A stretch of DNA of 64,000 nucleotides, taken from positions 1 through 64,000 of the IMG/VR virus record IMGVR_UViG_3300028394_000002. The stretch is one strand, 5' to 3'. A model generated the notes under the pieces. That model was given only the letters and a program-made list of their open reading frames with translations. It ran no database searches and had not been told where the DNA came from. Shown here in pieces: positions 5,569 through 58,600 of the stretch; position 1 is the stretch's first letter; the number at the start of each line of letters is the position of its first letter. The position numbers were made by a program, and so were the translations under genes. The stretch is from a virus.

Positions 5569-5724
5569 TTAATTTATAAGATTATCTATTTGAATTTTAC
5601 TTATAGGTTCATTCATATTTTTTATTTTTCTATATATCTCGTTATATGCTTCTTCAGATATATGTGAGCTTCCTCTTTGTTGTATCAATGATAAAAAATA
5701 TTTTAATGCTTCAGATTTTTTCAT
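5569..5724 (-). CDS. Small hypothetical protein, 51 aa
   Basis: The ATG at 5724 overlaps the TGA of the upstream lectin-like gene (ATGA joint). The product (MKKSEALKYFLSLIQQRG...) is helical and charged with no membrane segment. Because the lectin-like gene ends in a candidate variable region, this gene may be translated by coupling from it. Function unknown. Confidence 0.6.
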   Translation of the reverse strand: MKKSEALKYFLSLIQQRGSSHISEEAYNEIYRKIKNMNEPISKIQIDNLIN

Positions 5725-6080
5725 CTAAATTCTATGTTTTCTAAAGCCCGAACCGCACGCACGGGGTAAGTAATTGTCTTATAAGAGAGGTTGGCGTAAC
5801 CAAAGTTGAAGTTGAAGAGGTACGCATCGGATGCGTCATACTCGGTACTGCTCCAATAGTCTTGGTTTTTTATCAATTTATCTTCATAAATTATAAAGCA
5901 TTCTTGAATAGTTGGTAATCTCCAACCATCTCCTAACTTTTTAACTGCTTTAATAGCTTCATCCCAAGTCATTTCTCCTAAATTATCTGGATGTAACTCA
6001 AAGTGATAATGCTTATTAACTATTTGAGATTGTTTAATTACAGGTGTATATTCTACACCGTCTATTATTATGTTTTTCAT
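5721..6080 (-). CDS. C-type-lectin-like (DUF1566/Lcl type) protein, candidate retroelement target
   Basis: I chose the ATG at 6080 (MKNIIIDGVEYTPVIKQ); an in-frame ATG at 6140 would start inside the tRNA-like element. The 119-residue protein carries the lectin-fold signature: MTWDEAIKA, GDGWRLPTIQE, YWSSTEYD and a final YPVRAVRAL. This fold is the usual scaffold of proteins diversified by retroelements, where a variable surface binds ligands. The last 40 codons before the tail are GC-rich and full of NNC codons, unlike the rest of the window. No reverse transcriptase or template repeat was found here. The role could be ligand or receptor binding, though the gene lies among early genes rather than with the fibres. 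Confidence 0.8.
   Translation of the reverse strand: MKNIIIDGVEYTPVIKQSQIVNKHYHFELHPDNLGEMTWDEAIKAVKKLGDGWRLPTIQECFIIYEDKLIKNQDYWSSTEYDASDAYLFNFNFGYANLSYKTITYPVRAVRALENIEFR
5745..5864 (-). repeat. Candidate variable repeat (VR) of a diversity-generating retroelement
   Basis: In these 40 codons of the lectin-like gene, 17 end in C (GAC, TCC, TAC, CTC, TTC, AAC, GCC and others), whereas neighbouring genes strongly prefer NNT and NNA. Runs of NNC codons are what adenine mutagenesis of AAC codons in a template produces. The stretch ends GTGCGTGCGGTTCGGGC, a GC-rich block just before the stop, where the initiation site of such variable repeats normally lies. The template copy is not visible in this window. 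Confidence 0.55.
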
Positions 6081-6099: not shown

Positions 6100-6204
6100 T
6101 GGTCAGAGCAGGATTTGAACCTGTAAGTGGGTTTATTCATTTCACTCTTATGTCACCCTTTCATATGATCTTTTAGATAGCGTCTACCATTCCGCCACCT
6201 GACC
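6100..6204 (-). tRNA. tRNA-Leu-like element lacking a normal anticodon arm
   Basis: Read on the minus strand, the acceptor GGTCAGG (6204-6198) pairs with TCTGACC (6107-6101). A Leu-type D arm GCG-GAATGGTAGA-CGC follows. The T arm CAGG-TTCAAAT-CCTG is intact. The stretch between D and T arms is 55 bases, and by eye no 5-bp stem with a 7-base loop can be formed in it; the expected U33-anticodon-purine pattern is missing. It could be a decayed tRNA, a tRNA with a small insertion, or a tRNA mimic. No encoded CCA is seen. Confidence 0.6.
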
Positions 6205-47080: not shown

Positions 47081-48913
47081 ATGACAAAGCAAGAAATACT
47101 TAAAACACACAAGATGACCGAGAAGGAGTTCTACGAGAAGTTTCCTACTCAAGAAGCATATAATCAATTTCAAATGGGAGGTTCTTTATCTCCTAATCAG
47201 AAGTATCAAGGTGGTGGAAGTTTACCTCCGCTTTTACCTGCTTCTGCTGTACCTACTAGTTTAACAGATCCTGTTAAACATTTTACACCGCCTACTACAG
47301 CACCAGCTGCTGCAGCTCCTGCTGCTGCTCCAGGAGGTTTTAAACTTCCTAATCTATCTGGACTTGGTGGAGGTCAACAAGCTCCTCAACAAGCTGGAGC
47401 GGATCCTAATGCCCCTGTTCAAAAGAATATAGGTAAAACTATAGGTAGTGTAGCAGGCGGTATTGCTGGTTCATTTATACCAATTCCTGGAGTAGGTACT
47501 ATGATAGGCGGGGCTGTAGGAGGTGCTATTGGTGGAGCTATAGATAAGAAAACTTATGAAAATAAAATGGAAGACTATAGTGCTGTTAAATCTAGCCAGC
47601 AGAATGCAATGACTTCTAACATAGCTGGTAACTTTAATCCTAGCGCACAAGGTAAGCAGTTTAAGATGGGTGGTAATTTTACAGAGTACCACGGTAATAC
47701 ACATGAGAATGGCGGTATACCTATTGGTAAATCAGAAGTAGAAGGAGGAGAAACTAATCATAATGGTTATATATTTAGTGATACATTACAATTAGGTAAA
47801 AGAACTTTTGCTGATGTAAGTAAAAAGATTAATAACAAGTATTCCAGAAGACCAGATGATAAGATATCTATGGAGTCTAAAGAAAGGGAGTTAGGTAATC
47901 TTATGAAAGTACAAGAAAGTACTGGTATGACTAATAACTCACAAAGTAAGTTTCAAATGGGCGGGCCTAATTGGATGAACAACATTAATAAGTTAACTAA
48001 TCAAGCTAATGATTTTTCTAATTATAAACCTAATGCAGCAACTGGCCCTCTTGAAATTCCAAGCCAGCAAAGTAGTGGATTCTATACTACTGATGATATA
48101 AATTCTAATAAAGAGGCTGTAGGTAATATAGCAAATACATTAGTAACTCAACCAACTGACAGAGGGGCTATTCAAGAAGCAATAGAAAATGAAAGATCTA
48201 GAGTAGGTTTACAAACTACATCTCCTACATTATCTAAATCTTCTGTATCACCAACACCTGCTACTATAACAAATACTAATAAGCCATTACAAACAAAAGT
48301 TAATCCATTAGGTTACCTAGCTAGTACTATAGGCCCTGCTTATGATGTTGCACGAGGTTTAAAAGGTGGTGATCCTGTTAATTTTGATAGGATGAATAGT
48401 AAGTATCAATATGCTGATCCTAGAGGAGCTATGGCTGCTGCTAATAAAGGATTGACATCTGCTTACAACTCAACTAAAAACGCTGCTAGAAATACTACTA
48501 CTAGTGCTGGTGAGTACCTTGCTAATATGGGTATTCTGACTAGTAAAGAAGGTATGGATAGAGCTGCTACTATGGCTGGTATTAAAAGTCAATATGATAT
48601 AGCTAATACACAAGGTTTAAATCAAACTAACTTAACTAAAGATCAGTATAATGCTCAAATTCAAATGAGAGAATCTGAAGCTAGACAGCAAGAACAAGAT
48701 GCAGCTAGAAGTGCTGTAAGTCAAGGTCTACATAACTTTGGGCAAAACTCTTTAGGATATGGTCAAGATAGAGCTATGAATAAAACACAAAACACAATGC
48801 TACCGCTACTTGCAGATGGTTATGAGTATGTTATGGATGCTGATGGTAAGGTGAGTAGTAGAAAGAAAATAAGCGCTAATGATTCTAAAACTCCAGTTAC
48901 ACCAATAGAATAA
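47081..48913 (+). CDS. Virion protein with glycine-zipper segment, 610 aa
   Basis: The N-terminus MTKQEILKTHKMTEKEFYEK is followed by QFQMGGSLSP and QGGGSLPP, a Pro/Ala-rich linker, and a glycine zipper (GSVAGGIAGSFIPIPGVGTM and GGAVGGAIGGAIDK, about residues 126-158) that could insert in a membrane. Next come QFKMGGNFTEYHGNTHENGG, EVEGGETNHNGYIFSDTLQL and KFQMGGPNW. The C-terminal half is helical and Ala/Gln-rich. The GG motifs match those in the preceding gene, so the two proteins probably act together during ejection. Confidence 0.75.
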   Translation: MTKQEILKTHKMTEKEFYEKFPTQEAYNQFQMGGSLSPNQKYQGGGSLPPLLPASAVPTSLTDPVKHFTPPTTAPAAAAPAAAPGGFKLPNLSGLGGGQQAPQQAGADPNAPVQKNIGKTIGSVAGGIAGSFIPIPGVGTMIGGAVGGAIGGAIDKKTYENKMEDYSAVKSSQQNAMTSNIAGNFNPSAQGKQFKMGGNFTEYHGNTHENGGIPIGKSEVEGGETNHNGYIFSDTLQLGKRTFADVSKKINNKYSRRPDDKISMESKERELGNLMKVQESTGMTNNSQSKFQMGGPNWMNNINKLTNQANDFSNYKPNAATGPLEIPSQQSSGFYTTDDINSNKEAVGNIANTLVTQPTDRGAIQEAIENERSRVGLQTTSPTLSKSSVSPTPATITNTNKPLQTKVNPLGYLASTIGPAYDVARGLKGGDPVNFDRMNSKYQYADPRGAMAAANKGLTSAYNSTKNAARNTTTSAGEYLANMGILTSKEGMDRAATMAGIKSQYDIANTQGLNQTNLTKDQYNAQIQMRESEARQQEQDAARSAVSQGLHNFGQNSLGYGQDRAMNKTQNTMLPLLADGYEYVMDADGKVSSRKKISANDSKTPVTPIE

Positions 48914-55600: not shown

Positions 55601-58600
55601 TTGTTGGTAATATTAAAGAGAAAGGAGCTATTAACAAATCTATAAAAGCTCTAGAACAAAGAATAGCTGAATTAGAAAAAGTTAAAGAGGATATATCTAG
55701 AGTATTTAATCAACTAGCTTCTCAAAAGAATGATTTATTATTAGTCGTTGAAGAAATGAAAGACTCTTTTAAAAAGGGCCTAGATTTTTCTTTAAATGAG
55801 TTTTTAGAAAAGTTAGATCAAATGAACTTAGAGTCTATTGATAAGATATGGGCTAAAAAACTTTCTAAAGATTTAGAAGAGTTAGCTAATACTGATGATA
55901 TAGATTATGCTTTAAATCAACTTAGTATATTAAAAGATAATGTTACTGAACAAATTGCAGCATTAAGAAAACAAGTTGAACTATTACAAACTGCTATAAA
56001 TGAATCTGATGATTTTAAAAATTGGGTATTTGCTACTAAAATAGATGACTTACCTCAATGGTTTAAAGTTAAGTGGAAAGTTGCTGATAAATATAATTTA
56101 ACAACAGCTGAATTATTAGAAGATCCTAAAATTAGAGCTTTAGCAGATTATATATTTAAAAAGTTTGCTACTACTTATAATCTTACAATTGAAGAAGCTA
56201 GAGCTGAATTTAATAAAGATTTAGAAGAGATAAATTTAAATTTAAATTATGTAAATAGACAATCATTAGAAAATGAAGCTGTAGTTACTAAACAACAATT
56301 AGCTGAATTAGAACAAAATTTAATTGATATTAATAATCTAATTAGATTTAATAATAATAGAAAGTTATTTGAAAATTTAAATAACGCACTACAATCTATA
56401 AAAATAGAATATTCTACTATTCTTAATAGAGATAGAAAAGATGAAATTAGTAATTTACCTGATTCACAAAAAGCAGGTGATGAAGAATTTAATCCTAAAC
56501 CTATTCATACAGAAATTGCTAGTAGAGTTTTAAATAGTAATGCTCTATCTGACCATTTATTTTATACTACTAATATGACTGTAGAGTATGAAACTAATGC
56601 TGAAGGTAAGTTAGAAACAGTTTATGATGCAGATGGTTATCCAGTTATTAATAAAAATGAAGATTCTATAAGATGGAATAACTTCTTAGAACAAAATACT
56701 CCTGATATAACTAATTCTAAATATGTTTTAAGAACATATCTTTTATCTGGTGCTAAGATACCTGCTGATTTAAAAATAGATGCTTTAAAACGTATTTCTA
56801 ATGGTGGAGGAATTCATGATCCAGCAAATGATATAGTTACTGTATTAGTAAATACTGCTGATGGAGAGTTTGTTAAGTCAGATGATCAAGGTGAAGTATC
56901 TAAAACTGGTAAGTATGTGTATACATTTTTACCTAAAGCAGATACTTTAATAGATAATAAAGGTAAAAGTAAAGTTAACTTAAATGCATTAGTAAATTTC
57001 TTTATGCGTAATGCTAGTATGGAAGTTAAAGACCCTACTAACATTCATTTAACAGATCCTACTAAGTATATTACTGTTGGAGAAAAGAAATTAACTCCTT
57101 CACAATTTAAAGAGTTAGTAACAAATTTTGCTAAAGCTAACTATAACGAGTTTATAGCAGAGTTAAAAGCTAATATGGAAGCTAATGAAACTACTTATTT
57201 AAAAGCTCCTGGAGTTACTAATGGTATTCTTTTAACTAGAGAATCTAATAAAGATGTTGCTAAATCTCCTATGAGTTCAGTAGCTGAAGTATTAAAAAAC
57301 AAAAGAGGTCTTGATTCTCAAAAACCAGAAGACTTAGAGAATATAGGTGTTTATGTAATTGATAATAGTGAGGTTTGGGAAATACCAGGTTCTGGAATTA
57401 AAATTAAAAATGGAAAGAAAGGAGCTGTTATAGTTTATAATAAAAAAACTAAAGAGTATTTCTATGCTAACCAAAGAAAGATATCTACAGAAGATAAGAA
57501 ACTTATTATATACTACTTACAACAATCTAGGACACAAACAGAAAGTAGTCTTAGTGAGAAAAAGTTAAATATTGGTAATGATGGTAAGAGTTACTATATA
57601 GCTGATAATATGGGTAATAATGAGAAAGTTACAGATGTACCTATATTTGGTAAAACTGGTACTTTATCATTAATGAATAATATTATATTTTGGGGAGGTT
57701 CTAAAAATCCAGGTAGTAAGAACACTATTTACTTAAAGAGTAATAAAGTATATTTCTCAAACCCTAATCAAGGTTGGGCTATTACTGCTATTGATTTAGC
57801 TAATTTAGATAACCCTAAGTATAATTTAGATTTTATGGCTTTCTTAGATACTAAAAGACATAACATATCTAAGAATATGTTTGCTACAAATAAATTTTAC
57901 AAGCACCCTTATATAAATGGTAAAGGAGAATTAGCTTGGAAAACTTATCCAAATGGCTATAAAGAGTTCTTATTAAACTCTAAAGATCCAATTTTAATTA
58001 CAAATGCTGTTAGTTCTAATAGTAAATATAATGGTAATAAGATGCTATTTGCTTCTAAAAATGTTATATTAGATAGTTCTAATAATGGTAAACCTAAAAT
58101 ATTAAATAAACTACAAACTCAACCTGAACCTGAACCTGCTCCTAAACCAGCTTCAACTCCTGGCGCTAAACCTTCATCAGGCCCAGCTGCTGGAAAAGAT
58201 GCTCCTACTGAGGTGGAATTTGATGAAAACAAAATAGTATTTGGAGGAAATCTTCCAGCAGGTTTAAGAGGTGCTAGTGCTTCTGCAACTCCTGTGCCAA
58301 CAGCTAAAAATTTATTTGAAGAAGTAGTAGAAGCTCATTATGGTAGTTTTATATATCAAAGTAGTAAATTTACAGAACAAGCTGGATTAAGAGCACCTGA
58401 AATTTATGGTACTAATTTTGAAAAAGTTTTTAGAAGTATAATTAAAAACAAAGGTTTAGATTCAATTATTAGAGCTGCATTATTTAGTAGAATAGGATTT
58501 ATTTTTGAAAATAGACTTACAAATAAAACGACAGGTATTCAAGAACTAGTTGAATATATTAACAAAAGCTTTAATTTAAATATTAAAATTGATAGCAAAA

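Follow-up and report, generated by a model that had tools for sequence, protein, structure and literature searches.

The stretch of viral DNA studied here (the window) is the first 64 kb, positions 1 to 64,000, of the 96,997-base IMG/VR record IMGVR_UViG_3300028394_000002, and on its minus strand it encodes a small early protein of the C-type-lectin-like Lcl_C/DUF1566 type (119 aa, positions 5721–6080). We found that the 3' end of this lectin gene is a variable repeat (VR) of the kind written by diversity-generating retroelements (DGRs), and sequence comparison placed it in the cellular DGR families of Bacteroidota chromosomes, from which it very probably originated. Neither a template repeat (TR) nor a reverse transcriptase (RT) was identified in the phage itself. 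The reading that we favor is that complementary DNA (cDNA) from a host template is delivered in trans into the phage VR. Below, "the present phage" is the one whose record contains the window, and L and G numbers denote other loci, genomes and contigs.

Composition and Limits of the Variable Repeat

The lectin gene combines an AT-rich phage scaffold (codons 1–74) with a DGR-type variable 3' end. An earlier note, made from the sequence of the window alone, had proposed a C-type-lectin/DUF1566 fold from protein motifs, and the Pfam family Lcl_C (PF07603), a C-type-lectin-type target domain, was indeed matched at 41.4 bits (cut-off 34.9). A sequence match to HbP1 in the PDB (8q4e, E 6e-8) was also obtained. 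The AlphaFold model of the lectin was too poor to be of use (pLDDT 38) and was not considered further.

The VR occupies positions 5743–5858 on the minus strand (TATTGGAGC...CGGGCTTT) and is about 115 bases in length. The same note had reported 17 NNC codons and high G/C among the 40 codons at 5745–5864. Our count for these codons (73–112, positions 5864–5745) was exactly 17, and the GC content of the segment, 49%, placed it in the top 0.05% of 120-base windows in a genome of 30% GC. Within the VR, 16 of 39 codons were NNC compared with 6.8% in nine large phage genes (binomial p = 1.7e-9), and the GC content of the gene rose from 28% in the first 70 codons to 43% in the last 50. At the position of the initiation of mutagenic homing (IMH) element, the VR ends in an A-free tract, GTGCGTGCGGTTCGGGC (5746–5762, minus strand), that is identical to the 3' end of a cellular TR in L042 and is unique in the window even allowing three mismatches, with 0 matches expected by chance. 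The sole match to this 17-mer in viral contigs (L006) was in a GC-rich contig and was attributed to chance.

Relationship to Bacterial Retroelements

On the bacterial side, 1,226 genomes or records were searched in all. A pattern scan of bacterial genomes identified Lcl_C proteins with the same VR in metagenome-assembled genomes (MAGs) labelled 'Chitinophaga' (L023) and 'Lishizhenia' (L024), both of which are Bacteroidota, and further cellular VRs of the same backbone were found in L050 and L053, with a looser relative in L054. Four cellular VRs, from secreted lectins in four Bacteroidota genomes, were compared with the phage VRs over 66 aligned bases. At the 49 columns that were constant among the cellular VRs the present phage was identical throughout (49/49), and its relative L009 matched at 48; nine of the ten phage differences fell on columns that vary among the cells (p = 6e-6).

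Comparison of the present phage with L009 over 99 bases revealed 18 differences, 17 of which coincided with columns that hold adenine in intact cellular TRs (p = 2e-7), an excess that was retained with the count limited to codon positions 1 and 2 (p = 2e-5). The VR of L013, a third phage contig without an RT, differed from the TR of the L032 cassette at 9 of 63 bases, all nine at template adenines (p = 5.5e-5), and the cassette's own VR differed from that TR at 11 positions, again all adenines. The L032 TR does not correspond exactly to the template of L013: two additional codons follow further 3', and two of the ten differences in the 45-base right segment lie off adenines. In addition, a truncated template in G643 (TATTGGAGCAGTACCGAGTATAACGCAAC, a remnant of 29–30 bases) matched the start of the L009 VR without a mismatch for 29 bases, and the present phage differed from it at two adenines only. 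Agreement of VR and TR except at template adenines was thus observed both against the cellular VR families and against the 29-base TR remnant. Together, the identity at constant columns and the confinement of differences to template adenines place the phage VRs in Bacteroidota DGR families.

Sister-template cassettes, comprising a target with a VR, avd, an AAC-rich TR and an RT gene, were identified in L032, L033, L035, L036, L049 and L051, those of L032, L033, L049 and L051 being intact in all four parts. The avd product matched Pfam bAvd and the RT matched RVT_1, both above cut-offs; the NCBIfam DivGenRetAVD match of the avd product, at 67 bits, was below the cut-off of 80. The suggestion that the retroelement lies outside the phage was supported, in that the sister templates in cells adjoin DGR RTs and avd, and that the phage VR matches except at template adenines. 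The near-copy with AAC codons beside an RT that the earlier note would have sought was found in part: sister TRs with RTs are present in bacterial genomes, but the exact template of the present phage was represented by the 29–30 base remnant only. The missing partner would be predicted to begin TATTGGAGCAGTACCGAGTATAACGCAACCAATGCGTAC, to end GTGCGTGCGGTTCGGGCTT and to lie beside an RT.

Several of the bacterial loci were incomplete. Three tandem secreted Lcl_C-type genes were observed at L023:2916–5909, in a rhodopsin-bearing MAG, the third of which carries the GC-rich VR that it has in common with the phage, with neither an RT nor avd adjoining it. In L024, L050/L052 and L053 the target was accompanied by an intact or truncated avd, with the TR truncated and/or the RT lost; these loci are either DGRs that have decayed or targets supplied in trans. 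An RT in MAG G009 appeared, from its motifs, to be of the retron type and not that of a DGR.

The Lectin Gene in Related Phages

Homologues of the lectin were identified in L004 (66% identity), in L009 and L007/L008 (53%), and in L013. In L004, L009 and L007/L008 the gene is likewise placed among replication and other early genes. Megablast, tblastn and blastn searches against named phages gave nothing for the lectin gene or its region. Pattern scans of IMG/VR for a related VR or TR gave L009 only, although one scan was blind to L009 as the stored contig piece breaks inside the VR; five of the six pattern-scan matches were chance and the sixth was L009's own contig.

The L009 VR carries the same GC-rich codons as that of the present phage. 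Over 33 VR codons, 21 were identical, none differed synonymously and 12 had amino-acid changes, with 9, 8 and 1 differences at codon positions 1, 2 and 3, whereas the N-terminal 72 codons had 8 synonymous and 14 nonsynonymous changes (12, 1 and 14 by codon position). The contrast in codon position was significant (p = 0.001), and the synonymous contrast alone was weak (p = 0.04 to 0.10). L009 retains the native phage 3' end after GTGC and the present phage does not, indicating at least two tract boundaries. The C-terminus of L007 is AT-rich (25% GC) and shows ordinary divergence, and the lectin is therefore a phage gene in its own right.

Absence of Retroelement Machinery in the Phages

No TR or RT had been noticed in the window, and our searches extended this to the whole record: RVT_1 and DGR-RT homologue searches identified no RT, and no TR-like copy was found by blastn or by a scan that let any template base be A. 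The record, although listed as being without end repeats, has identical direct terminal repeats of 127 bases (positions 1–127 and 96871–96997), which indicate that the genome is probably complete and either circular or terminally redundant; the absence of an RT and TR is therefore meaningful. The L004, L007, L009 and L013 phage contigs, which may be fragments, also had no DGR RT or template copy. A weak RVT_1 match in the L007 contig did not resemble an RT.

How the Variable Repeat Reached the Phage

Under the reading that we favor, the lectin would be a chimera of a phage scaffold (codons 1–74) and a C-terminal ligand-face segment of about 115 bases from a host TR. A chromosomal DGR of a Bacteroidota host would supply the TR, the reverse transcriptase and Avd, and during infection mutagenised TR cDNA would replace the phage VR in trans. 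The phage RecT-like annealing protein (record positions 82675–83286) perhaps assists by taking up single-stranded cDNA or DNA with short homology. The outcome would be varied early lectins for a phage that carries no DGR. We put the probability of this mechanism as a whole at about 0.5; what we infer within it is that cDNA is delivered in trans, that such delivery recurs, and that the lectin acts early and in the cytoplasm in host–phage conflict.

Two features of the tract are consistent with a template source. The VR of the present phage ends GTGCGTGCGGTTCGGGCTT, as does the L042 TR, whereas sampled host VRs of the same backbone end GTGCGTGGAGTAAGGGCTT, and the imported tract stops close to the limits of the repeat, with no host-gene sequence beyond it.

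Several observations weigh against this mechanism. A full-length TR and RT of exactly the present phage's backbone were not found in the genomes and records searched, and no DGR RT could be detected in any of the five MAGs whose VRs are nearest. The A-free IMH-type end, complete in the present phage, is truncated in L009. Other cellular VRs end GTGCGTGCCGTTCGGGC, one base from GTGCGTGCGGTTCGGGCTT, so that the match to a TR end is only modest evidence for a template or cDNA source. A hairpin/cruciform 3' of the VR, of the ACCGCGAAGCGGT type downstream of the VR at cellular targets, was present at 8 of 9 of those targets (one interrupted) and absent in the present phage, L009, L013 and L004. In BPP-1 the hairpin is required for efficient homing and hairpin-independent activity is much weaker (PMC3240598). 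Finally, differences confined to A sites do not alone show retrohoming, since recombination with already diversified host VRs gives the same pattern.

Recombination of this type, in which an already diversified host VR (or TR DNA) was swapped in once or repeatedly through short homology with no retrohoming into the phage, is somewhat less probable than delivery of template cDNA in trans. It predicts the same A-site-only pattern, and it accords with the lack of the hairpin in the phages, the right tract boundary that varies between the present phage and L009, the RecT-like recombinase, and the apparent loss of the RT from the MAGs with the nearest VRs. The two features of the tract described above argue against it, as the 3' end is that of the L042 TR and not of the sampled host VRs, and nothing of the host gene outside the repeat unit was imported.

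Returning to delivery of template cDNA in trans, one form of it would accommodate the missing hairpin. In this form environmental crAss-like phages would parasitise the host chromosomal DGR, the RecT-like protein annealing cDNA into replicating phage DNA with no canonical hairpin needed, and the early lectin would be diversified in trans, perhaps so as to bind or titrate host variable lectins or defence sensors. We consider this version doubtful.

That the template and RT reside on another mobile element (a co-infecting phage, prophage or plasmid) and not in a chromosomal host DGR is improbable. The exact TR and RT are missing from the sampled genomes, and DGR-bearing crAss-like phages are known (PMC7290462). 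However, the IMG/VR scans gave no related VR or TR except L009, none was found in phage or plasmid records (where a low-complexity filter may hide A-rich templates), and every matching cassette sits in a bacterial genome. An origin with no DGR at all, through ordinary positive selection on the lectin face and a GC-rich segment of other origin, is extremely improbable: the L007 C-terminus indicates that the lectin works without such a VR, but positive selection alone is strongly disfavored, since every constant column agrees base for base with the cellular VRs and changes are restricted to template adenines.

Genome Setting and Likely Function of the Lectin

The genome matched the TerL, portal and major capsid (major head protein) families of crAss-like phages (phrog_6681, 6547 and 11589), its TerL being approximately 35% identical to the TerL of crAss-like phages. 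Judged by these families, its size of about 97 kb and its terminal redundancy, the phage is crAss-like. The lectin gene is one of a series of small early genes close to that for a family A DNA polymerase, in keeping with the position among early genes that had been remarked on before. Directly upstream, at window positions 6100–6204 (minus strand), a tRNA match of 105 bases scored 29.1 bits against an Rfam gathering score of 29, with no ARAGORN call. An alternative ATG at 6140 from open reading frame calling falls inside this tRNA-like match and the near homologues begin MKN or MEN, and a start at 6080 is therefore likely.

Two further GC peaks were observed inside large structural-side genes, at window positions 47221–47441 and 58121–58181 (maxima of 53% and 51%, respectively, per 100-base window). 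Beyond the window, at record positions 86566–93361 on the minus strand (L002:2566–9361), a cluster of genes for an amidoligase_2, a class II glutamine amidotransferase, a phiEco32-like COOH.NH2 ligase and a peptidase C26 suggests that a crAss-like phage encodes a pathway for the amide ligation of peptides or proteins.

No secretion signal was evident in the lectin when judged by eye, and PADLOC gave no match for it. Based on the lack of an evident signal and the early-gene location in this phage and its relatives, a cytoplasmic early function appears likelier than one in a tail fiber. By analogy, a role in host–phage conflict is plausible: a non-structural hypervariable lectin lies in a defence-related region of Quimbyvirus (PMC8008677), and an antigen-sensing role has been proposed for the lectins of bacterial DGRs (PMC10907252).

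Comparison with Known Systems

The chromosomal Bacteroidota DGRs described above, arranged target(Lcl_C)-avd-TR-RT, share with the present phage the VR backbone, the AAC/AAT-type codons, the lectin target and the A-site changes. They differ in having longer, secreted targets, a downstream hairpin and an RT in cis or nearby, whereas the phage protein is small and unsecreted-looking, is early, and has no RT, TR, avd or hairpin. The crAss-like phages crAssphage LMMB (PMC7290462) and the Zeta group (PMC12386605) also carry a C-type lectin domain with a DGR-type VR, but with the RT and TR in cis and a tail-fiber-type target, where the present phage has neither RT nor TR and an early gene as target. 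The second DGR target of Quimbyvirus is, as here, a hypervariable-type phage lectin outside the structural module with a suggested role in host–phage conflict; Quimbyvirus, however, encodes its own RT and TR (PMC8008677). Diversification in trans was proposed for Thiohalocapsa PB-PSB1 (PMC10907252) with both loci in one bacterial genome, while here target and template would be in different genomes. No report of RT-less phages with VRs that match bacterial chromosomal DGR templates was found in the open-access literature, subscription papers lying outside that search. What appears to be new is therefore the occurrence of DGR VRs in a non-structural gene of phages that lack an RT, cellular DGRs being the likely source.

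Implications

Because DGR surveys start from the reverse transcriptase, a target with its template in another organism escapes them; Roux et al. 2021 state of their own method that remote targets are invisible to it (PMC8144416). In the present case, VRs of bacterial chromosomal DGR families occur in an early gene on three phage contigs without an RT. If these VRs were written in trans, a virus would be using a hypermutation system across genomes; if they were recombined, the phages would have captured ready-made binding-site diversity.
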